Source of the DNA: Actinomadura nitritigenes | GTDB lineage: Bacteria; Actinomycetota; Actinomycetes; Streptosporangiales; Streptosporangiaceae | NCBI RefSeq assembly: GCF_017573545.1 | Contig: NZ_JAGEOK010000003.1 | Coordinates: forward strand, 186,001-250,000 | DNA length: 64,000 nt | Reading direction: 5' to 3' | In this document: piece by piece, positions 971-9,235 of the stretch | Position numbering within the stretch: the stretch's first letter is position 1 | How the letters are laid out: each line of letters begins with the position of its first letter | The notes under the pieces: model-generated | What the model was told of the DNA's origin: nothing | The model's input: only the letters and a program-made list of their open reading frames with translations | Databases searched by the model: none | Position numbers and translations under genes: made by a program

Positions 971-1653
971 GCGCGGGAGCCGGGCTCGGCCAGGCGGACC
1001 CCGACGCCCCGGACGGTGTGCAGGTAGCGGGGTTTCGCCGCGGTCTCGCCGAGCTTGCGGCGCAGCCAGGACAGGTGCACGTCGATGGTCTGGTCGTCGC
1101 CGTAGGCCTGCCGCCACACCTCGGCGAGCAGTTCGCGGCGGGCGACGACGCGGCCGGGCCGGGCGGCGAGGTAGGCGAGCAGGTCGAACTCGCGGCGGGT
1201 CAGCTCCAGCGGCGCGCCGTCCAGCCGCGCCTCCCGGCGGTCGAGGTCGATGTGCAGACCGCCGACGCTGATCTCGGCGGACGGCCCGGACCGCACGGAG
1301 CGGCGCAGCACCGCGGCGAGCCGGGCGCTGAGGTGCTCGGCGGAGAACGGTTTGATCAGGTAGTCGTCGGCGCCGGCGTTGAGCAGCCGGACGATCTCGG
1401 GCTCGTCGTCGCGGGCGGTGGCGATGATGACGGGGACGTCGGACACGCCGCGCAGCATCTTCAGCACCTCGGCCCCGTCGAGGTCGGGCAGCCCGAGGTC
1501 CAGGATGACCACGTCCGGCGGCGACTGGGTGACCTCGCGGAGCGCGTCCATCGCGGTGCCGACGCTGCGCACGACGTGCGAGCGCGCGCTCAGCTCGCGG
1601 ATCAAGGCGGTACGGACGTTCGCGTCGTCCTCGACAACCAGAACACTCGCCAT
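967..1653 (-). CDS. OmpR/PhoB-family response regulator
   Basis: DNA-binding response regulator of 228 residues. The receiver domain (1-115) has the acidic pair Asp9/Asp10, phospho-acceptor Asp52 in VILDLGLPD, and Lys101 in the LIKPF switch motif. A winged-helix output domain (about 127-225) ends with the usual TVRGVGVRL hairpin. The ATG at 1653 (MASVLVVEDD) is chosen because it begins directly at the receiver fold; the frame is open further upstream but without receiver homology. It precedes the kinase gene with a 4-base overlap and is divergent from the small exported protein at 1681, which is a plausible target. Confidence 0.95.
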   Translation of the reverse strand: MASVLVVEDDANVRTALIRELSARSHVVRSVGTAMDALREVTQSPPDVVILDLGLPDLDGAEVLKMLRGVSDVPVIIATARDDEPEIVRLLNAGADDYLIKPFSAEHLSARLAAVLRRSVRSGPSAEISVGGLHIDLDRREARLDGAPLELTRREFDLLAYLAARPGRVVARRELLAEVWRQAYGDDQTIDVHLSWLRRKLGETAAKPRYLHTVRGVGVRLAEPGSRA

Positions 1654-1680
1654 GCCGGAACCGTATGCCACCATGTGTCG

Positions 1681-2199
1681 ATGCGTCGGGCGATGTCGTA
1701 TGTTGCCCCGTGGGCGGTCGCGACCGCGGTGGCGGTGGCGCTGTCCTGGCTCGGGGTGCGCGGTGTCGTGCGCGGCGCGGTGTCGGAGCGGTCGGCGCCG
1801 CCGCCGATCGCGGGCCCGGTCATCCACGGCAGCCCGTCCACCCTGCCGGGTCCGCCGACGAGCGTCGGATCGCCGACGTCGGCGCCGCGTCCGGCGGCGG
1901 GCGAGGACCAGGGCCCGACGCCCAGCCGGTCCCCGTCGCCGTCTCCGTCCGGGAAGCCGTCCAAGCAGAGGCCGTCCGGCGACGTGCGCAGCTTCGCGGC
2001 GCGCGGCGGGCAGGCGGTGCTGGCCTTCACGGGCGGTCGCGTGAAGCTGGTGTCCGCGACGCCGAACCCGGGCTACGAGACGCGCGTGACGGAGGCGGCC
2101 GGCTGGCTGCGCGTCGACTTCCTCACCGACGAGCACACGTCGTCGATCGTGGCGACCTGGGACCAGCGCCCGCCGGCCGTCAAGGTCTACGAGTACTGA
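1681..2199 (+). CDS. Small membrane-anchored or exported protein of unknown function
   Basis: 172 residues, not recognised as a named family. An N-terminal hydrophobic segment (about 8-27, within PWAVATAVAVALSWLGV) is followed by a Pro/Ser-rich linker (about 45-100) and a compact C-terminal domain (about 102-172) rich in beta-forming residues, ending in KVYEY. The layout suggests a single-pass protein with its C-terminus outside the membrane. It is divergent from the two-component regulator with only 27 bases between the start codons, so it may be under that system's control. The start is the ATG at 1681; a GTG two codons upstream is an alternative. Confidence 0.7.
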   Translation: MRRAMSYVAPWAVATAVAVALSWLGVRGVVRGAVSERSAPPPIAGPVIHGSPSTLPGPPTSVGSPTSAPRPAAGEDQGPTPSRSPSPSPSGKPSKQRPSGDVRSFAARGGQAVLAFTGGRVKLVSATPNPGYETRVTEAAGWLRVDFLTDEHTSSIVATWDQRPPAVKVYEY

Positions 2200-2260
2200 G
2201 CGAGACGGCCCCGGGACGGAGGCGCGCGGAGAAGCGGGCGCGCGCAAGGCGCGCACGGAA

Positions 2261-2292
2261 GGGCGGGCGGCCCGTGCGCCGGCCGCCCGCCC
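2261..2292. terminator. Bidirectional hairpin terminator
   Basis: Perfect 12-base inverted repeat (GGGCGGGCGGCC / GGCCGCCCGCCC) with an 8-base loop, lying between the convergent ends of the exported protein gene (2199) and the small repeat protein gene (2307). There is no U-tract, as is common in high-GC actinobacteria. Confidence 0.65.
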
Positions 2293-2306
2293 TCGGTCCG
2301 CGGCCG

Positions 2307-2669
2307 TTACTGCTGGCTCTTCCTGAACATGAGGTAGCCGGAGATGAGGCGGTACGCGCCGTAGAGCATCGGGCCCCAGGCGACGACGTACACGCCGCCG
2401 CTCGGGCCGGAGGCGTTGCTGTAGGTGATCAGCGTGATGAGCAGGCCGGCGACGAACCATGCGACGCCGAAGCCCATGCCGCGCTTGCCCTTGGTGTCCC
2501 AGATGCGCCGCTGCTCGTCGCTGACCTGCTGGTAGTGCGGGGCGGCCTGCGCCGGCTGCTGGTAGTGCGGGACCTGCTGGTCCTGCGGCGCGGGCTGCGG
2601 CGGCTGCTGGTAGTGCGGGGCCGGTTGCGGGGGCTGCTGGTAGTGCGGGGCGGGCTGCGGCTCGGTCAT
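2307..2669 (-). CDS. Small PHYQQ-repeat membrane protein
   Basis: 120 residues. The N-terminal third is low-complexity, with repeats of the PHYQQ type separated by Pro/Ala/Gln; the C-terminal half carries two hydrophobic segments (about 66-85 and 93-112). This layout (Pro/Gln-rich cytosolic tail plus small membrane domain) is common in actinobacterial proteins of unknown function. A GGGAG ribosome site lies 5 bases before the ATG. It sits 11 bases downstream of the PH-like membrane protein gene and is probably co-transcribed with it. Confidence 0.75.
   Translation of the reverse strand: MTEPQPAPHYQQPPQPAPHYQQPPQPAPQDQQVPHYQQPAQAAPHYQQVSDEQRRIWDTKGKRGMGFGVAWFVAGLLITLITYSNASGPSGGVYVVAWGPMLYGAYRLISGYLMFRKSQQ
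2528..2648. repeat. Intragenic repeat encoding PHYQQ units
   Basis: The 13-mer GCTGGTAGTGCGG occurs four times, starting at 2528, 2558, 2606 and 2636. All copies are in frame within the repeat protein gene, so copy number could vary by slippage without breaking the frame. Confidence 0.8.
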
Positions 2670-2680
2670 GGTGCTCTCCC

Positions 2681-3235
2681 TCAGGTGACCGGGCGGCCGT
2701 GCGAGCCCGCCTCGGCGATGATGCGGTCGATGAAGGCGTCCCGGCCGCCGGTCAGCAGCAGCGGGACGGGGATGGTCGTGCCGTCGCGGCCCTCGACCTT
2801 GTAGCCGGCGACCTTGCCCTCGTCGCCCTGCTTGCGCTTGTAGACGGCCTTCACCGCGGCGAGGTCCCGCCAGGCGATCACCAGCGGGCCGCTGCGGCGC
2901 CGGGCGACCAGGCCGCCGTCGAACAGGTACGTCGCCCGGGACCCGACGGTCAGGCCGCGGATCGCGTAGACGATCCCCCAGAGGAAGCCCATCAGCAGGA
3001 CGAAGTGGATCGGGTAGGCCAGCGAGTGGACCCAGGAGAAGACGTCCGTGGAGCCGGGGACGAGCGACAGCAGCCACATGAGCAGGAGGCATCCCGCCGC
3101 GGTCGCGCCGCCGAGGACGACGGCGGTCGTCGCGGTGACCTCCCGCCGGACGTCGCAGAGCGCGCCGAACCCGTGCCGGGCGGCCGCGCCGGTCACGTCG
3201 TCGGGAGGGATCGTCGTGGTCGCCGCTCCATCCAT
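2681..3235 (-). CDS. Membrane protein with PH-like C-terminal domain (DUF6585-like)
   Basis: 184 residues. Two membrane segments (about 35-60 and 72-95) are followed by a C-terminal domain (about 100-180) with the strand-rich look of bacterial PH-like domains, including the segments GGLVARRRSGPLVIAWRDL and AVKAVYKRKQG. Resemblance to DUF6585 is from memory and tentative. Two ATGs are adjacent; the one at 3235 is chosen because GGAGG lies about 5 bases before it, while the ATG at 3238 is too close to that site. It is first of a two-gene unit with the PHYQQ protein. The role is unknown. Confidence 0.7.
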   Translation of the reverse strand: MDGAATTTIPPDDVTGAAARHGFGALCDVRREVTATTAVVLGGATAAGCLLLMWLLSLVPGSTDVFSWVHSLAYPIHFVLLMGFLWGIVYAIRGLTVGSRATYLFDGGLVARRRSGPLVIAWRDLAAVKAVYKRKQGDEGKVAGYKVEGRDGTTIPVPLLLTGGRDAFIDRIIAEAGSHGRPVT

Positions 3236-3334
3236 CATTCCTCCGATCGCCGACAGAGCCTCAGCGAGCACGATGGCGGATGCCGGTACACGTCCGGTAT
3301 ACGCGCGGCTCGTCACGCGTCGCGAGGCGCGCTT

Positions 3335-3363
3335 CGGGAAGGGCGCGCACCGGGAAGGGCGCG
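3335..3363. repeat. Short direct repeat upstream of the PH-like gene
   Basis: Two copies of CGGGAAGGGCGCG (3335-3347 and 3351-3363), spaced 16 bases, in the 142-base gap between the HORMA-like candidate gene and the PH-like gene. Function unknown; it may simply be GC-rich slippage. Confidence 0.45.
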
Positions 3364-3377
3364 GCGGGCGGGGGCCG

Positions 3378-3905
3378 TCAGCCCTGCCCGGCCAGGTTGA
3401 CGCCGACGGTGACCTCGTCCAGCTCGGGGATGCTCATCGTGGTGCCGTAGAAGCCGCTGCGCCACTGCACGGGGTCCGCGTTGCGGAAGCCGAGCTCCCG
3501 GTTGGCCCTGCTCCGGTCGACGCCGGCGGCGTACCGGGAGTGGACGACCTTGCGGAGCCCGAGCTCGCGGGCGACCAGCTCGAACTTCTGCAGCGCCAGG
3601 TCGATCTCGGTGGAGACCCCGCCGTCCCAGCCGGCGTCGACCTGGACCATGTCCCGGCCGGCCGACAGGTGCAGCGCGTTCCGCTCCCAGTCGATCTTGA
3701 TGAACAGCTCGACATGGCACGCGCCGTCCCCGTCGAGGCCGTAGACGGAGATCTCCTTGATCCAGCGCCTGTCGACGCCGAGGAGGAGCCGGCGGACGAA
3801 GTCGCGGTCCCGGGAGCTGCGCGAGAGGACGCGTTCGACCTGCAGTTTGATCAGTTCGGCGCGGGCGTACGTCGCCGTGTACGTCGCGGTCCTGGCGATG
3901 ACCAT
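3378..3905 (-). CDS. 175-residue partner of the Rca-like ATPase; possible HORMA-like protein
   Basis: Not confidently recognised. The N-terminus (MVIARTATYTATYARAELIK) begins a helix, followed by a helix-strand pattern WIKEISVYGLDGDGACHVEL (about 48-67), then a long C-terminal part with GRDMVQVDAGWDGG and HSRYAAGVDRSR. That order, an N-terminal amphipathic helix, a central strand-turn-strand and a loop-rich C-terminus, resembles bacterial HORMA proteins, which are remodelled by AAA+ ATPases. This is inference from pattern, not alignment. An AAGGA site lies 7 bases before the ATG. It is last in a three-gene unit, 16 bases after the ATPase stop. Confidence 0.75.
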   Translation of the reverse strand: MVIARTATYTATYARAELIKLQVERVLSRSSRDRDFVRRLLLGVDRRWIKEISVYGLDGDGACHVELFIKIDWERNALHLSAGRDMVQVDAGWDGGVSTEIDLALQKFELVARELGLRKVVHSRYAAGVDRSRANRELGFRNADPVQWRSGFYGTTMSIPELDEVTVGVNLAGQG

Positions 3906-3921
3906 GCCTGTTCCTTGGGGG

Positions 3922-4743
3922 TTAGGAGGAGAGGTAGTCGTGTGCCGTGTCGGCGGCGGTGCTCGTGGCCACAGCGAGGATGTCCTCGAGCGGGTGCGGG
4001 CGGTCGTCGATCCTCACCCGGCTGCGCGAGACCAGGCTCCTGGCGAGGTCGCCGAGGCCGTGCCGGTAGAGGGCCGTGGTGAGCGCGGTGTCGTCCATGC
4101 GGCGCCGCACCGCCGCCCAGAAGGAGATCGGTTCGTCGGGGAAGCGGCCCACGAGGTCGGCGGCCTGCTCCCCGCTCAGCCAGGGGAAGAGCGAGTTGAC
4201 CGCCGCCGCCCGCTCCGCGGGCTGCATGCGCCAGCTGAAGATCCGCATGCGGCCGCTGCGCCGCAGCGGCGCGTACAGCCGGGTGAAGTCGTTGCCGGTC
4301 AGGATGATGGGGACCCGGCGCATCCGCTTGCCCTCCACCCGGGTCGGGTAGTCGGCGAGGTGCATCAGCTCGGTGATCAGGTTCTGGGTGTTGACGGTGT
4401 ACTGCGTCAGCTCGCCCCAGCTGCCGATCGCGGCGTCGGCGTCGTTGAGCAGCACCGCCGCCGGGGTCCCCGCCTCGGCGTAGCCGCCGGCCTCCAGGTA
4501 GGCGGCCCGCATCCGGGCCGCGGGCGCCCCCGCGTTCGGGCTCTCCAGCTCGCCGCCGGACAGCAGGACGGCATGGATTCCGGCGCCCTCCAGGATGCGC
4601 TCGACCTGATAGGTCTTTCCCTCGCCCGGCGGCCCCTGGATGCCCAGGAGAAGCGGGGTTCCCGGTCGCGCGTCGGGCTGGAAATTGGCGATCAGATGCA
4701 GGCCGACGACGTCGGAGAAACGCCGCGCGATCGATTCGGTCAC
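3922..4743 (-). CDS. RuBisCO-activase-like (Rca-like) AAA+ ATPase
   Basis: 273-residue AAA+ ATPase. Walker A GPPGEGKT at 37-44, a Walker B-like VLLNDAD at 97-103 and sensor-1 segment ILTGNDF at 147-153. Several blocks match plant and cyanobacterial RuBisCO activase closely as I remember it: SGGELESPNAGAPA (62-75), TQYTVNTQ (113-120) and TGNDFTRLYAPLRRSGRM (149-166). These blocks are specific to the Rca branch rather than general AAA+. GTG start overlaps the upstream stop (GTGA), indicating coupling. No RuBisCO gene is present here, so the remodelled substrate is probably another protein, plausibly one of its two operon partners. Family assignment is firm; function is inferred. Confidence 0.9.
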   Translation of the reverse strand: MTESIARRFSDVVGLHLIANFQPDARPGTPLLLGIQGPPGEGKTYQVERILEGAGIHAVLLSGGELESPNAGAPAARMRAAYLEAGGYAEAGTPAAVLLNDADAAIGSWGELTQYTVNTQNLITELMHLADYPTRVEGKRMRRVPIILTGNDFTRLYAPLRRSGRMRIFSWRMQPAERAAAVNSLFPWLSGEQAADLVGRFPDEPISFWAAVRRRMDDTALTTALYRHGLGDLARSLVSRSRVRIDDRPHPLEDILAVATSTAADTAHDYLSS

Positions 4744-5342
4744 GCTCCCGATTCCCTCCGGCGCCGTTCCTTCTCCCGCAGCACCTCGGCCGGCAGCCCG
4801 AGAATCTCGGCGCGCAGATCGGGCCGGGAATCGCCGGGTGCGGACTCGTCGGGGGGAATCAGATCACCGGCGGCGGGCCCGTTGCCGGAACCGGCCACCG
4901 CCCCCTCGCCGGAAACGGCCGCCGCGTCGCGGGAAACGGCCGCCGCCGCGCCCGCCGGACCGGCGGCCGCCTCGTCTCCGGTGAGCGGCAGGCCCAGTTC
5001 GCGGCGGCGGGCCGTCACGCTGTTGACCAGTTCCTCCAGCGCCGCCTGCGGGTCGCGCGGCGTCTTGCGGATCCGTCCGGACGGCCGGATGACCAGGCGG
5101 TCGTCCCGCCAGGTCAGGTCGCGGTCCTTGTCCACCACCGCGTCGAGCTCGCGAACCGCGACGCCCATGGCCTGCCGTCTCTCCAGCGCCCGGTTCTTCT
5201 TGATCTCGCCCTCGATGAGCGCCACCAGTTCCCCGCGGTTCCGCTCGGTCTGCCTGTTGCTCAGCAGACCGCTGATGTAATTGCTCAGGACATTTCCGAT
5301 CACCCCGAGCACAAAAGCCTCGATCAACTCCCGACCTCGCAT
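4740..5342 (-). CDS. Putative membrane-anchored partner of the Rca-like ATPase
   Basis: 200 residues, family not recognised. Residues 6-28 (within LIEAFVLGVIGNVLSNYISG) form a hydrophobic or amphipathic helix. A charged helical stretch follows (about 30-75), then a compact segment with DLTWRDDRLVIRPSG (about 77-91), an Ala/Gly-rich linker (about 122-165) and a charged C-terminal helix (AEILGLPAEVLREKERRRRE). It is first in the operon; its stop overlaps the ATPase start. The start codon is the ATG at 5342 but no strong ribosome site is visible, so it may be wrong by a few codons. It could tether the ATPase to the membrane. Confidence 0.7.
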   Translation of the reverse strand: MRGRELIEAFVLGVIGNVLSNYISGLLSNRQTERNRGELVALIEGEIKKNRALERRQAMGVAVRELDAVVDKDRDLTWRDDRLVIRPSGRIRKTPRDPQAALEELVNSVTARRRELGLPLTGDEAAAGPAGAAAAVSRDAAAVSGEGAVAGSGNGPAAGDLIPPDESAPGDSRPDLRAEILGLPAEVLREKERRRRESGA

Positions 5343-5772
5343 CCGCGTGACGACGAACCACCATATGGGACGCCGGCCAGGCGACGATGGTTCACCACAG
5401 AATGCGGCACCGCGCGTTCCGCCGTCCACGGCGTGAAGATCGCGATACGGGGCCGCCGTGAACCCCGTATTTCCCCGGGTTCGGCCCGGCGGGGCGCGGG
5501 ATATGCTCGGAATTTTCGACCGCTCCTGCCGGCGTCGCGCAGATCTCTCGCCCATTATGCGCGAATTGTCAAACAGAAGGTCGCCGCCCGGCGCCGCCCC
5601 GCCGGACCCCATCCGATCCCGCCCCGGCCCCGGTCGGCACCGCGACCGGCCCCGGCGCCGCGCCGCCGTCCGGGCGGGCGGCGGAGAAAGCGGTTTCCGG
5701 GCGGGGCGGCCGGGGAATCCCCGTGATCACAACGGCAGGGACCGGCGGGGGCGGTCGGAAGGGACGGCTCCC
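5343..5772. other. 430-base divergent intergenic region
   Basis: Separates the minus-strand Rca-like operon from the plus-strand transporter, so both promoters should lie here. It is noticeably less GC-rich between 5430 and 5580 than its surroundings. I found no convincing coding frame, no clear -35/-10 pair and no long inverted repeat. Confidence 0.5.
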
Positions 5773-7110
5773 ATGGCCCTGGATCCCGGGGACGCGGCGC
5801 GGGCCCGCGCGGCGGGCGGCGGCGAGCGGCGGCGGCAGGTGCGGCTGGCCGCGGTGTCGAGCGTGATCGGCACCTCGATCGAGTGGTACGACTTCTTCCT
5901 CTACAACACCGCGGCGGCGATCGTCTTCAAGGACGTGTTCTTCCCCGAGTCGAGCGACTACGCGGGGACGCTGTCGGCGTTCGCGACGTACGCGGTCGGG
6001 TTCGCGGCGCGGCCCGTCGGGGCGGCGATCTTCGGGCACTGGGGCGACCGGCTCGGCCGCAAGGCGATGCTGATCGTCACGCTGGTGCTGATGGGGATCT
6101 CCAGCGCGCTGATCGGGCTGCTGCCGGGGACGGACTCGATCGGCGCCGCGGCGCCGGTGCTGCTGGTGCTGCTGCGCGTCCTGCAGGGCATCGCCGTCGG
6201 CGGCGAGTGGAGCGGCTCGGTGCTGCTCTCCATGGAGTGGGGCGACCAGAGGCGGCGCGGGCTGATGGCGAGCCTGCCGCAGATCGGGGTGCCGATCGGG
6301 CTGATCCTCGGCACCGGGATGATGACGGCCATCGCGCTCTCGGCGGACAAGGCGTTCACCGACTGGGCGTGGCGGGTGCCGTTCCTGTTCAGCCTGGTGC
6401 TCGTCGCGGTCGGGCTGTTCGTGCGGGTCCGGGTGATGGAGACGCCGCTGTTCGCCGAGGTGGTGGAGAAGCGGGAGGTCGCGCGGGTGCCGGTCGCCGA
6501 GGTCGTGCGGCAGCACCCGAAGGAGATCATCCTGAGCGCGCTGCTGCGGTGCTCTGAGCAGATGCCGTTCTACATCTTCACCTCGTTCGCCCTGACGTAC
6601 ATCCATAAGGACCTCGGGATGAGGCAGGGGCTGGCGCTCAGCGCGGTGACCGCGGCGGCGGTGCTGGAGCTGTTCACGATCCCGGCGGCCGGGCATCTCG
6701 GCGACCGGATCGGCGGGCGGCGGGTCTACGCCGTCGGATCGCTGCTCATCGCGGTGATCGCGTTCCCGTACTTCGGGCTGATCAACACCAAGGCGGCGGC
6801 GCTGGTGGTCGTCGCCGTGGTCGTGGCGCAGATCCCGCACGCGGTGCAGTACGGGCCGCAGGCATCGCTGATCGCGGAGAGCTTCCCGACCCGGCTGCGG
6901 TACGGCGGGGCGGGCATCGGCTACCAGCTGGCCTCGGTGATCGCGGGCGGGCCGGCGCCGCTGCTCGCGACGTGGCTGCTGCACGACTACGGCTGGTGGG
7001 CGATCGCGGTCGCGATGGTCGTGTCGTCGGTGCTGACGCTGGGCGCGCTCGCGCTGCTGCCGGACCCGGCCCGGGCGCGGGCCGTCCGGGAGGCGGGCGC
7101 GCCCGCCTGA
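5773..7110 (+). CDS. MHS-family MFS transporter
   Basis: 445-residue major facilitator of the metabolite:H+ symporter group (relatives carry proline/betaine, citrate, ketoglutarate or shikimate). Diagnostic blocks are GTSIEWYDFFLYNTAAAIVF (about 36-55) at the first helix and GHWGDRLGRKAML (about 87-99) in the loop between helices 2 and 3; about 12 membrane segments are seen. Start is the ATG at 5773 with GAAGGGA 8 bases upstream. The substrate cannot be told from sequence alone. It ends 10 bases from the convergent thioesterase gene. Confidence 0.92.
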   Translation: MALDPGDAARARAAGGGERRRQVRLAAVSSVIGTSIEWYDFFLYNTAAAIVFKDVFFPESSDYAGTLSAFATYAVGFAARPVGAAIFGHWGDRLGRKAMLIVTLVLMGISSALIGLLPGTDSIGAAAPVLLVLLRVLQGIAVGGEWSGSVLLSMEWGDQRRRGLMASLPQIGVPIGLILGTGMMTAIALSADKAFTDWAWRVPFLFSLVLVAVGLFVRVRVMETPLFAEVVEKREVARVPVAEVVRQHPKEIILSALLRCSEQMPFYIFTSFALTYIHKDLGMRQGLALSAVTAAAVLELFTIPAAGHLGDRIGGRRVYAVGSLLIAVIAFPYFGLINTKAAALVVVAVVVAQIPHAVQYGPQASLIAESFPTRLRYGGAGIGYQLASVIAGGPAPLLATWLLHDYGWWAIAVAMVVSSVLTLGALALLPDPARARAVREAGAPA

Positions 7111-7120
7111 CGGCCCGCGC

Positions 7121-7753
7121 TCAGCGCTCGTGGACCAGGAAGTTCTGCGGCGTGACGAACATCGCGGTGGCCTCGACGGTGACGCGGCCGTCGGGGCCCG
7201 CGATCGTCCCGGACGCGTAGATCTTGCGGCCCTCGACGCGGCTGGCCTTGGCCTCGACGGTCAGCAGGACCCCGAGCGGGGTGGGCCGCCGGTAGCGCAG
7301 CTCGAGGGTCGCGGTCATCCCGCCGGTGCCGGTCTGCGCGGCGGCCATGCCGAGCGCCTGGTCGAGGACCATCGCCGACACCCCGCCGTGCACGTAGGAC
7401 GGCGGCCCCTCGTAGACGTCGCTGAGGGTGAACTCGGCGCGGACGATGCCGTCGGGGGTGACGTCGAGGTCGACCGGCGGCGCGACGGGGTTGAGGGCGC
7501 CGGTGACCGGGTTGCAGCCCTGCCGGTCCATGCGGTGCCCGCCGGTGACGAGGAACGGCGGCGCGTCGCGGCGCACGGCCCGCAGCCGCTCGGTGAGCGC
7601 GGCGATCTCGTCCGCGACGGCGCGCGCCTCGCCGGCGCCGACGCCGGTGAGGACGGCCGCCTCGGTCAGCTCGCGGACCCGGGCGGCGAGCCCGGCCAGC
7701 GGTGCCGCCTCGTCCTCGCCGAGCATGTGCCGTTCGGTGGTCGCCCCGCTCAT
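7121..7753 (-). CDS. PaaI-family hotdog thioesterase
   Basis: 210 residues. The C-terminal 120 residues form a hotdog fold with the family motif PPSYVHGGVSAMVLDQALGMA (a His-Gly-Gly followed by the central helix with acidic Asp), as in acyl-CoA thioesterases of the PaaI type. The N-terminal 90 residues are helical and less conserved. An ideal AAGGAGG site sits 5 bases before the ATG. Expected to hydrolyse acyl-CoA thioesters in the cytosol; the acyl group is unknown. Divergent from the DUF4870 gene. Confidence 0.87.
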   Translation of the reverse strand: MSGATTERHMLGEDEAAPLAGLAARVRELTEAAVLTGVGAGEARAVADEIAALTERLRAVRRDAPPFLVTGGHRMDRQGCNPVTGALNPVAPPVDLDVTPDGIVRAEFTLSDVYEGPPSYVHGGVSAMVLDQALGMAAAQTGTGGMTATLELRYRRPTPLGVLLTVEAKASRVEGRKIYASGTIAGPDGRVTVEATAMFVTPQNFLVHER

Positions 7754-7894
7754 TCAGCCTCCTTCTGAGCCGAACGAGATTCTAAATTGCGCGGGCGGGT
7801 GCCCGGTGCGCCGGGTCCCGCCCAGCGGGCGGCGAGGGCGGCGCGCTCTATGATTCATGCGGACGAACATCCGCATCCGCGAAGGAATCCCCCC

Positions 7895-8383
7895 GTGACC
7901 GAGCAGCCACCGCCCTATGGGCAGCCGTACGGGCAGCCTCCGGGACCCCCGCCCGGAGGACCGTACGACCCGCGCTGGGGCTACGGGCCGCCGGGCGTCC
8001 CGTACGGGCCGCAGTACGCCCCGCCGCGCAACGACGACAACACGTGGGCCATCTTCGCCTACGTCGGCACGCTCGTGATCTCGTTCCTCGCGCCGCTGAT
8101 CATCTACCTGGTGAAGAAGCGCGAGTCGCCGTTCGTCCGCTTCCACGCGGCGCAGGCGCTGAACGTGCAGATCACGCTGCTCATCCATCTGCTGGCGGTG
8201 ATGGCGGTCTGCATCCCGCCGGCGATCATCGCCAAGGCCCCCGCCTTCCTGATCCCGATCGTCCTCCCGTACCTGGAGGCGCTGATCGGCCAGTGGGTGT
8301 TCCTGATCCTGGGGGCGGTCAAGGCCGGCAGGGGCGAGATCTACCGGTTCCCGACCTTCTTCTGCTTCCGGATGGTCCGCTAG
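7895..8383 (+). CDS. DUF4870 small membrane protein
   Basis: 162 residues. A Pro/Gly/Tyr-rich N-terminus (about 1-48) precedes a DUF4870-type membrane domain with three hydrophobic segments (about 50-70, 90-115 and 125-148) and the typical cytosolic motif SPFVRFHAAQALN between the first two. The GTG at 7895 is chosen because GAAGGAA lies 8 bases upstream; an in-frame ATG at about 7850 lacks such a site. Function of the family is unknown. Confidence 0.85.
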   Translation: MTEQPPPYGQPYGQPPGPPPGGPYDPRWGYGPPGVPYGPQYAPPRNDDNTWAIFAYVGTLVISFLAPLIIYLVKKRESPFVRFHAAQALNVQITLLIHLLAVMAVCIPPAIIAKAPAFLIPIVLPYLEALIGQWVFLILGAVKAGRGEIYRFPTFFCFRMVR

Positions 8384-8410
8384 CCAGCGGCCGGGGTCCC
8401 CGGGCGCGGG

Positions 8411-9235
8411 TCACAGGTAGGTCCGGGCGTACTCGTCCAGCACCGGCAGGACCGCGTCCCGGCCGCCTCCCGGGACCCGCAGCACGACCTCCTCGACGCC
8501 GATCGAGGCGTAGTGGCCGAGCTTCTCCACGCTCGGCACGGTCCCGAACGGCACGACCGGGACCATGTCGCGTCCCGCTTCCGCGCAGGCGCGGCGCAGG
8601 TCCGGGAGCGCCTCGCGGACGCCCGCCCCGCCGATCGGCATCCACCCGTCCCCGTACTCGGCGATGTGCGCGAACAGCGTCGGACCTGGAGCACCGCCGA
8701 GCAGCACCGGGACGCGGCCGGCGGGCTTCGGCCACGACCAGCTCGGCTCGAAGCGCACGAACTCGCCCGTGAACGACGCCTCGTCCCTCGTCCACAGCTC
8801 GCGCATCGCCAGCACGTGCTCGCGCACGACCTCGCGCCGCCGCTTCCAGGGAACGCCGTGGTCGGCGCCCTCCTCGGCGTTCCAGCCGTAGCCGACGCCG
8901 AGCGCGACCCGGCCGCCCGCGATCCGGTCGAGCGTCGCGACGGCCTTCGCGGTGACGATCGGCTCGCGCTGGGCGGGCAGCATGACGCCGGTGCCGAGGG
9001 TGATCCGCTCGGTCACGGCCGCCGCCGCGGCGAGCGCCACGAACGGGTCGAGCGTGCGCGCGTACTCGGGGGCCAGTGCCGCGTCGCCGGTCGGCGGCGG
9101 CGTCTCCCGCGCCACCGGGATGTGGGTGTGCTCGGGGACGTAGAGCGAGGCGAAGCCACGGTCCTCGGCCTCCCTGGCCAGTTCGTGCGGCGGCATGGTC
9201 AGGTCGGTCGCGAACATGGTGATGCCCAGCCGCAT
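8411..9235 (-). CDS. LLM-class F420-dependent oxidoreductase
   Basis: 274 residues of the luciferase-like monooxygenase fold (TIM barrel), related to actinobacterial F420-dependent enzymes. Visible blocks are the first strand MRLGITMFAT, FASLYVPEHTHIP, the sequence VTERITLGTGVMLPAQREP, and GGRVALGVGYGWNAEE. An AGGAG site lies 8 bases before the ATG. Substrate unknown. Fewer than 50 bases separate it from the carbonic anhydrase gene downstream on the other side of its start, so the two may share a transcript. Confidence 0.88.
   Translation of the reverse strand: MRLGITMFATDLTMPPHELAREAEDRGFASLYVPEHTHIPVARETPPPTGDAALAPEYARTLDPFVALAAAAAVTERITLGTGVMLPAQREPIVTAKAVATLDRIAGGRVALGVGYGWNAEEGADHGVPWKRRREVVREHVLAMRELWTRDEASFTGEFVRFEPSWSWPKPAGRVPVLLGGAPGPTLFAHIAEYGDGWMPIGGAGVREALPDLRRACAEAGRDMVPVVPFGTVPSVEKLGHYASIGVEEVVLRVPGGGRDAVLPVLDEYARTYL

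Follow-up and report, generated by a model that had tools for sequence, protein, structure and literature searches.

The 64,000-nucleotide stretch of the Actinomadura nitritigenes genome analysed here (contig NZ_JAGEOK010000003.1, positions 186,001 to 250,000; referred to as the window) carries on its minus strand a compact unit of three genes which probably constitutes an independently evolved HORMA-remodelling switch driven by a motor of the ribulose-1,5-bisphosphate carboxylase/oxygenase (RuBisCO) activase (Rca) type. The unit encodes a partner protein (gene 1, 200 residues), an AAA+ ATPase (gene 2, 273 residues) and a small protein of predicted HORMA fold (gene 3, 175 residues), whose coordinates are collected in Table 1. 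The operon is confirmed as first described, since the coupling reported in the original prediction, a GTGA overlap followed by a 16-base gap, agrees in positions and letters with the sequence (four-base overlap of genes 1 and 2 at 4740–4743, minus-strand letters GTGA). Pairwise dN/dS ratios (Nei–Gojobori method, NG86; 18 pairs between the window and its near relatives, the loci L005, L012 and L006) range from 0.20 to 0.54 for all three genes, which are under purifying selection.

Gene 2 is assigned to the Rca family of green-type RuBisCO activases and not to TRIP13, as supported by sequence comparisons. A search of the PDB sequences retrieved three Rca structures (6z1d, 4w5w and 3t15) with E-values from 6.3e-48 to 3.7e-43 over gene 2 residues 5 to 222–239, the match to 6z1d (E 6.3e-48) spanning residues 5–235 of 273. 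The likeness is not due to chance because Rca scores 151–167 bits compared with 32 bits for the next protein, of the Cdc48/p97 type, among the best 60 of 93 matches. When a 15-row ATPase profile was used as query, Rca reached 253–268 bits over positions 5–269 and the next entry 57 bits within the core only, the subsequent p97-type entries extending to position 198 at most (best 60 of 284 matches); the profile match to Rca (E 5.7e-79) covers positions 6–265 of 276. The helical lid of Rca (PF21228) is matched by gene 2 with 20.8 bits, under the Pfam cut-off of 27, by its relative P0024 with 27.5 bits and by P0118, a homologue fused to an RbcS-like domain, with 122.6 bits; for Cap6, the TRIP13-type ATPase of type III CBASS (cyclic-oligonucleotide-based antiphage signalling system), this lid was not listed at E<=0.1. 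Gene 2 is devoid of the RbcS-like C-terminal domain (PF00101), unlike its cyanobacterial homologues. The latter RbcS-fused proteins correspond to the cyanobacterial Rca-like proteins described in excerpts of PMC5385338.

The relationship to TRIP13 was assessed in a tree which also included four bacterial proteins of the TRIP13 type (Cap6 of locus L047 plus three relatives from plasmids) and four of the FtsH type. The HORMA-linked ATPases, nine in number, group with five RbcS-fused homologues from cyanobacteria at a support of 100/100, and TRIP13 and FtsH are placed on the opposite side; the RbcS-fused homologues stand here for Rca, plant Rca being outside the sample, and long branches separating the two sides prompted a program warning. 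A topology forcing the HORMA-linked ATPases together with the four bacterial TRIP13-type proteins was rejected (approximately unbiased (AU) test, p 0.00885), a BLASTP comparison of gene 2 with Cap6 was not significant (E 0.20), and the TRIP13 model of PADLOC listed no match to the window ATPase at E<=1. The C-terminal lid of TRIP13 (PF23242) was found neither in the window protein nor in its genome, a negative result shared by the controls, with Cap6 itself unlisted. Two observations count against a non-TRIP13 assignment: the ATPase of locus L029 matches the PADLOC TRIP13 model with 12.8 bits, and a 23-row ATPase profile compares with Cap6 at 94% by way of the AAA core, a likeness that common AAA+ descent would account for. 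The original prediction had recognised three motif blocks of Rca and regarded a branching with TRIP13 as evidence against its view; the blocks are present in the translation and align with those of 6z1d, 4w5w and 3t15, and the PDB, profile, BLASTP and tree evidence points to Rca and not to TRIP13.

For gene 3, the Pfam scan matched no family, and no HORMA family was found at E<=1, nor at E<=10 in ten other gene 3 homologues. The AlphaFold model (best predicted local distance difference test score, pLDDT, of 91) identified HORMA entries in all 50 Foldseek and all 50 VIA rows displayed, and the model of the divergent gene 3 of locus L013 likewise revealed a HORMA fold by structure search. Gene 3 is consequently predicted to be a HORMA domain, the fold being modelled in two divergent members. 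The model starts with residues of low confidence (1–6, pLDDT <50), its first strand beginning at residue 9, and R5, T6 and T8 within this N-terminal segment are nearly invariant in the alignment. The suggestion in the original prediction that the ATPase serves a client other than RuBisCO, possibly the product of the last gene, is strengthened because gene 3 is now predicted to be a HORMA domain and the HORMA class has members remodelled by an AAA+ motor.

The unit is sparse, its distribution is independent of RuBisCO and its linkage is constant. The order gene 1, ATPase, gene 3 is found in all 11 loci read (the window, L005/G201, L012/G161, L006 of Streptomyces sp. NBRC 109706, L013/G118, L014/G012, L015/G172, L027/G696, L028/G678, L029/G718 and the viral contig L034). 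Among 341 genomes of the family, the ATPase profile detected nine (best 7 candidates per genome), and the HORMA profile the same nine and none besides, each time adjacent to the ATPase (best 10 candidates per genome); both profiles were built partly from these loci, and the informative part is the lack of unpaired copies among the candidates scored. Within the genus, 4 of 65 genomes carry the unit. With 396 phylum and 392 class genomes, the window's own genome was the only one found (best 6 candidates per genome), and a family search with a single window protein found three among 150 genomes (best 16 candidates per genome). The surroundings vary from partly shared flanks (window and L005) to signs of mobility. 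In L013 (2055–5647), genes for a serine recombinase and for RepSA, a replication initiator of the pSAM2 type, are found 3–7 kb from the unit, and in L014 (7954–10823) the ATPase gene is split into two pieces around a transposase-like open reading frame (ORF) on the opposite strand, with genes 1 and 3 open; on the other side of the unit, L013 and L014 have a common chromosomal neighbourhood. The copy on the viral contig L034 is oriented opposite to the phage genes and flanked by two different terminase large subunits (1472–8443), whose closest matches are phages of Firmicutes or from human gut samples; this contig possibly represents two phages or a chimaera. The plasmid collection contained no match to the window gene 3, the window ATPase, P0071 or the phage-contig ATPase, the phage collection gave no match to the phage-contig ATPase, and further viral scans revealed no additional contig with the unit.

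Gene 1 matched no Pfam family at E<=1 when scanned as an ORF of 290 residues, the reading frame being open upstream to a start at 5612. In nine of the ten gene 1 versions measured, the strongest hydrophobic stretch of 19 residues begins at residues 1–9, with mean hydropathies of 1.96–2.51 in L013, L014, L015 and L027 (2.13 in L027) and of 1.34–1.59 in the window, L005, L006 and L029; in L034 the strongest stretch (1.57) is located at residue 58. Among members of the window group (18-row alignment), gene 1 has a conserved C-terminal tail, which is a candidate docking or closure motif. Such a layout would fit an anchored protein equipped with a docking or closure motif.

On these grounds we propose a first scenario for the function of the unit. 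The HORMA domain of gene 3 would close its C-terminal safety belt over a peptide supplied by gene 1 or by an invader, and closed gene 3 would keep gene 1 either active or inactive. The ring formed by gene 2 would act as a dedicated remodeller which grips the flexible N-terminus of gene 3, pulls it through the pore and thereby opens and resets the HORMA protein, the job performed by TRIP13 in other HORMA systems. Gene 1 would serve as HORMA partner and as output, probably at the membrane. TRIP13 and Rca alike are motors that reshape a client. That the gene 2 ATPase acts on the gene 3 HORMA protein appears very probable, the tail of gene 1 might be the ligand of gene 3 with chances slightly short of even, and the other steps of the cycle are conjecture.

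Several observations weigh against such a switch. The HORMA assignment of gene 3 stands on predicted folds; the five gene 3 models span mean pLDDT values from 90.8 to 68.6, and the template modelling scores (TM-scores), normalised to the query, amount to 0.36–0.54. A search of gene 3 against the PDB sequences returned two aldolases alone (best E 0.31) and no HORMA protein, and hhalign detected no kinship to the HORMA protein of E. coli CBASS (about 0.1–0.2%). Even within the family the ties loosen, as profile comparison between the gene 3 types of L028/L029 and L013 reached 34.6% and the phage-contig gene 3 was linked weakly, at 37% and 12%. Hydropathy of gene 1 drops to 0.95 in L028, and across groups the gene 1 proteins were matched to one another through their place in the unit and their hydrophobic start rather than through sequence comparison. 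PADLOC gave no match for five gene 3 and two gene 1 proteins and weak matches or none for six ATPases, and among the ten flanking proteins scanned no clear defence gene was detected, two of them giving DNA-binding-type matches, one of which is an 18.7-bit match to capH. The moderate TM-scores and the lack of a sequence profile backing HORMA would suit the idea that gene 3 is no HORMA protein and that the fold match reflects the coincidence of a small alpha/beta layout; considering the uniform structure search results, also for the divergent L013 member, we regard this as very improbable. The silence of the CBASS-type HORMA profile PF18138 in the window's genome and in 246 phylum genomes shows little, as the controls were equally silent. 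Alternatively, gene 2 might remodel gene 1 or a gene 1/gene 3 complex, with the HORMA protein in the role of adaptor, handing over gene 1 in the way that p31comet, which has a HORMA-like fold itself, brings MAD2 to TRIP13. Direct assembly of gene 1 with the ATPase could be reflected in the four-base overlap of their genes, and a TRIP13 adaptor does exist in p31comet (excerpts of PMC4439613); however, the short, conserved, low-confidence N-terminus of gene 3 fits a client, and the unit contains a single HORMA gene, which makes the adaptor role rather unlikely.

A connection to RuBisCO itself was also considered. The genome of the window contains one match to the RuBisCO large chain, located on another contig (C83, locus L001 34–2865) together with a small-chain (cbbS) candidate and with CbbX, which scores above the NCBI cut-off. 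The neighbouring small ORF, a cbbS by position and length, shows a weak CcmM-domain match and is the probable small chain. The original prediction of a unit without RuBisCO is thus true of the operon but not of the genome. It had regarded a large-chain gene with CbbX elsewhere in the genome as evidence against its view; both are present, yet they show only that the RuBisCO of this genome, adjoining CbbX, has its own activase, and six of the nine operon-bearing genomes yielded no large-chain match (large chain found in the window's genome, G201 and G172). A RuBisCO role for the ATPase was rejected, as six of nine carriers show no large-chain match and RuBisCO resides elsewhere beside CbbX. That gene 2 is a second activase of its own genome's RuBisCO, with its neighbours as accessories, could appeal to the strong Rca kinship and to the large chain in this genome; given the separate contig with CbbX, the carriers without large-chain match, the missing PF00101 and a lid score of 20.8 compared with 122.6 bits for P0118, it is the least credible of the explanations considered. 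As to the biological purpose of the proposed HORMA switch, phage defence or a similar conflict is about evenly balanced against other uses. The patchy spread, the copy on a phage contig, the mobile genes of L013 and the insertion in L014 fit a mobile conflict system. Neither in the three-gene unit nor among the ten flanking proteins scanned, a subset of the flanking ORFs, was a CD-NTase (cGAS/DncV-like nucleotidyltransferase) detected. A signalling module with a housekeeping or developmental role in actinomycetes, for instance in the cell cycle or sporulation, would agree with the absence of a recognised effector domain in the unit, with purifying selection on the three genes and with the partly common flanks of the window and L005; the patchy occurrence (9/341 family and 4/65 genus genomes), the strong divergence between copies and the phage-contig copy argue against it and render it unlikely, though somewhat less so than the adaptor role.

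The relation between the two kinds of ATPase raises the possibility that the Rca family arose in bacteria as HORMA remodellers, of which the cyanobacterial and plant RuBisCO activase would be one branch captured for carbon fixation; we consider this descent conceivable, though doubtful. A HORMA-like gene adjoins the ATPase in all 11 members with readable neighbours, the call being based on the predicted fold in two, on sequence or profile kinship in eight and on a weak match in the phage copy. From the relatives of the ATPase (best 120 of 187 proteins), trees were drawn with 37 (13 RbcS-fused and 24 others), 29, 22 and 20 members; the split ATPase of L014 is in no tree and that of L034 in the 29-relative tree alone. 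In the 37-, 29- and 20-relative trees the RbcS-fused homologues are united in one clade, and in the first two this clade lies inside the HORMA-linked set (members with known neighbours), albeit with distant roots; the outgroup of the 37-relative tree was CbbX alone, a very distant protein on a very long end branch of 10. Holding the HORMA-linked rows together in the 22-relative tree was not rejected (AU p 0.419), and nesting is thus not required; the 20-relative tree leaves the nesting order open, the nine HORMA-linked rows possibly forming one side of a branch (70/95). In view of this p value and this branch, a firm nesting of Rca inside the HORMA-linked ATPases is not upheld as a principal conclusion. 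According to a review, Rca originated in cyanobacteria (excerpts of PMC9951593), which is at odds with a descent from HORMA motors. Among the relatives, the Planktothrix protein P0076 is named RuBisCO activase by its source; no RbcS-like domain is listed for it, and in the trees it is placed outside the clade of RbcS-fused homologues, so that this name may be wrong.

The individual features of the unit are compiled in Table 1. The sensor 1 and arginine-finger roles in gene 2 are those which we presume from general knowledge of AAA+ proteins. Downstream of the unit, at 2307–3316 of the window, two overlapping hydrophobic ORFs were noticed, one with a sub-threshold DUF6585 match.

Table 1. Coordinates of the three genes and their features in the window
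Feature	Position	Strand	Description
Gene 1	4740..5342	-	200 aa; N-terminal hydrophobic helix, conserved middle, variable Pro/Ala/Gly-rich linker, conserved basic C-terminal tail (18-row alignment, hydropathy)
Gene 1 hydrophobic segment, residues 9-27	5262..5318	-	mean hydropathy 1.59; borderline membrane span
Gene 1 conserved tail, last 27 residues	4743..4823	-	preceded by linker of variable length; several invariant columns
Gene 2	3922..4743	-	Rca-family AAA+ ATPase (assigned by sequence), 273 aa
Walker A, GPPGEGKT, residues 37-44	4612..4635	-	G40, G42, K43 invariant, 23-row alignment
Walker B region, ND-x-D form as in Rca, residues 97-103	4435..4455	-	D101, D103 invariant, 23 rows
Sensor 1 and arginine-finger region, TGNDFTRLYAPLRRSGRM, residues 149-166	4246..4299	-	N151, R162, R165 invariant, 23 rows
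Intergenic gap gene 2/gene 3	3906..3921	-	16 bases; Shine-Dalgarno-like AAGGA upstream of the gene 3 ATG (read directly)
Gene 3	3378..3905	-	175 aa, predicted HORMA fold, proposed client of the ATPase
Gene 3 first 8 residues	3882..3905	-	low-confidence start of the model; putative handle for the ATPase

HORMA proteins, a class of shape-changing switches, function in meiosis, DNA repair and the checkpoints of the cell cycle as well as in type III CBASS immunity. The excerpted sources (PMC4439613, PMC10419184, PMC9122588) name TRIP13 as the motor acting on them, and TRIP13 converts closed to open MAD2 (PMC4439613). A pairing of HORMA with an Rca-type motor was not found described in titles and abstract openings of the papers listed from the open full-text literature, most subscription papers lying outside this scope, and a prior description is possible. 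If the proposal is true, a second motor family works on HORMA proteins and HORMA remodelling arose more than once; moreover, Rca, known as a RuBisCO chaperone, would gain a non-photosynthetic relative and perhaps its origin. The unit would likewise disclose a HORMA family missed by the sequence profiles tried here, and it offers a candidate defence system of three small genes open to testing.

Compared with known systems, the unit most closely recalls type III CBASS, in which, according to excerpts of PMC9122588 and PMC10419184, the cyclase is regulated by Trip13, an AAA+ ATPase, and by HORMA proteins that bind peptides; there too (Cap7 HORMA, Cap6 TRIP13 and CD-NTase; locus L047) a small bacterial unit brings together a HORMA-fold protein and, beside it, a dedicated AAA+ ATPase. 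In contrast, no CD-NTase or recognised effector was found in the present unit, its ATPase is of the Rca type (BLASTP to Cap6 E 0.20) and the HORMA proteins have no profile-level sequence kinship. With the green-type Rca of plants and cyanobacteria, gene 2 has the AAA core, part of the lid and the catalytic positions in common and branches with the cyanobacterial homologues, but it differs by the missing tie to RuBisCO, the missing RbcS-like domain and the weak lid profile score. CbbX, the red-type activase, is an AAA+ motor as well, encoded next to RuBisCO in this genome; it is, however, tied to RuBisCO and lies very far away in the tree (end branch 10). The proposed mechanism is alike in TRIP13/Pch2 acting on MAD2 and the meiotic HORMADs, namely an ATP-driven opening of HORMA (excerpts of PMC4439613), whereas the motor belongs to a different AAA+ family, as grouping with the four bacterial TRIP13-type proteins was rejected (AU p 0.009). 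Judging from sequence and fold prediction, an Rca-type motor would thus take the place of TRIP13 in a HORMA unit.
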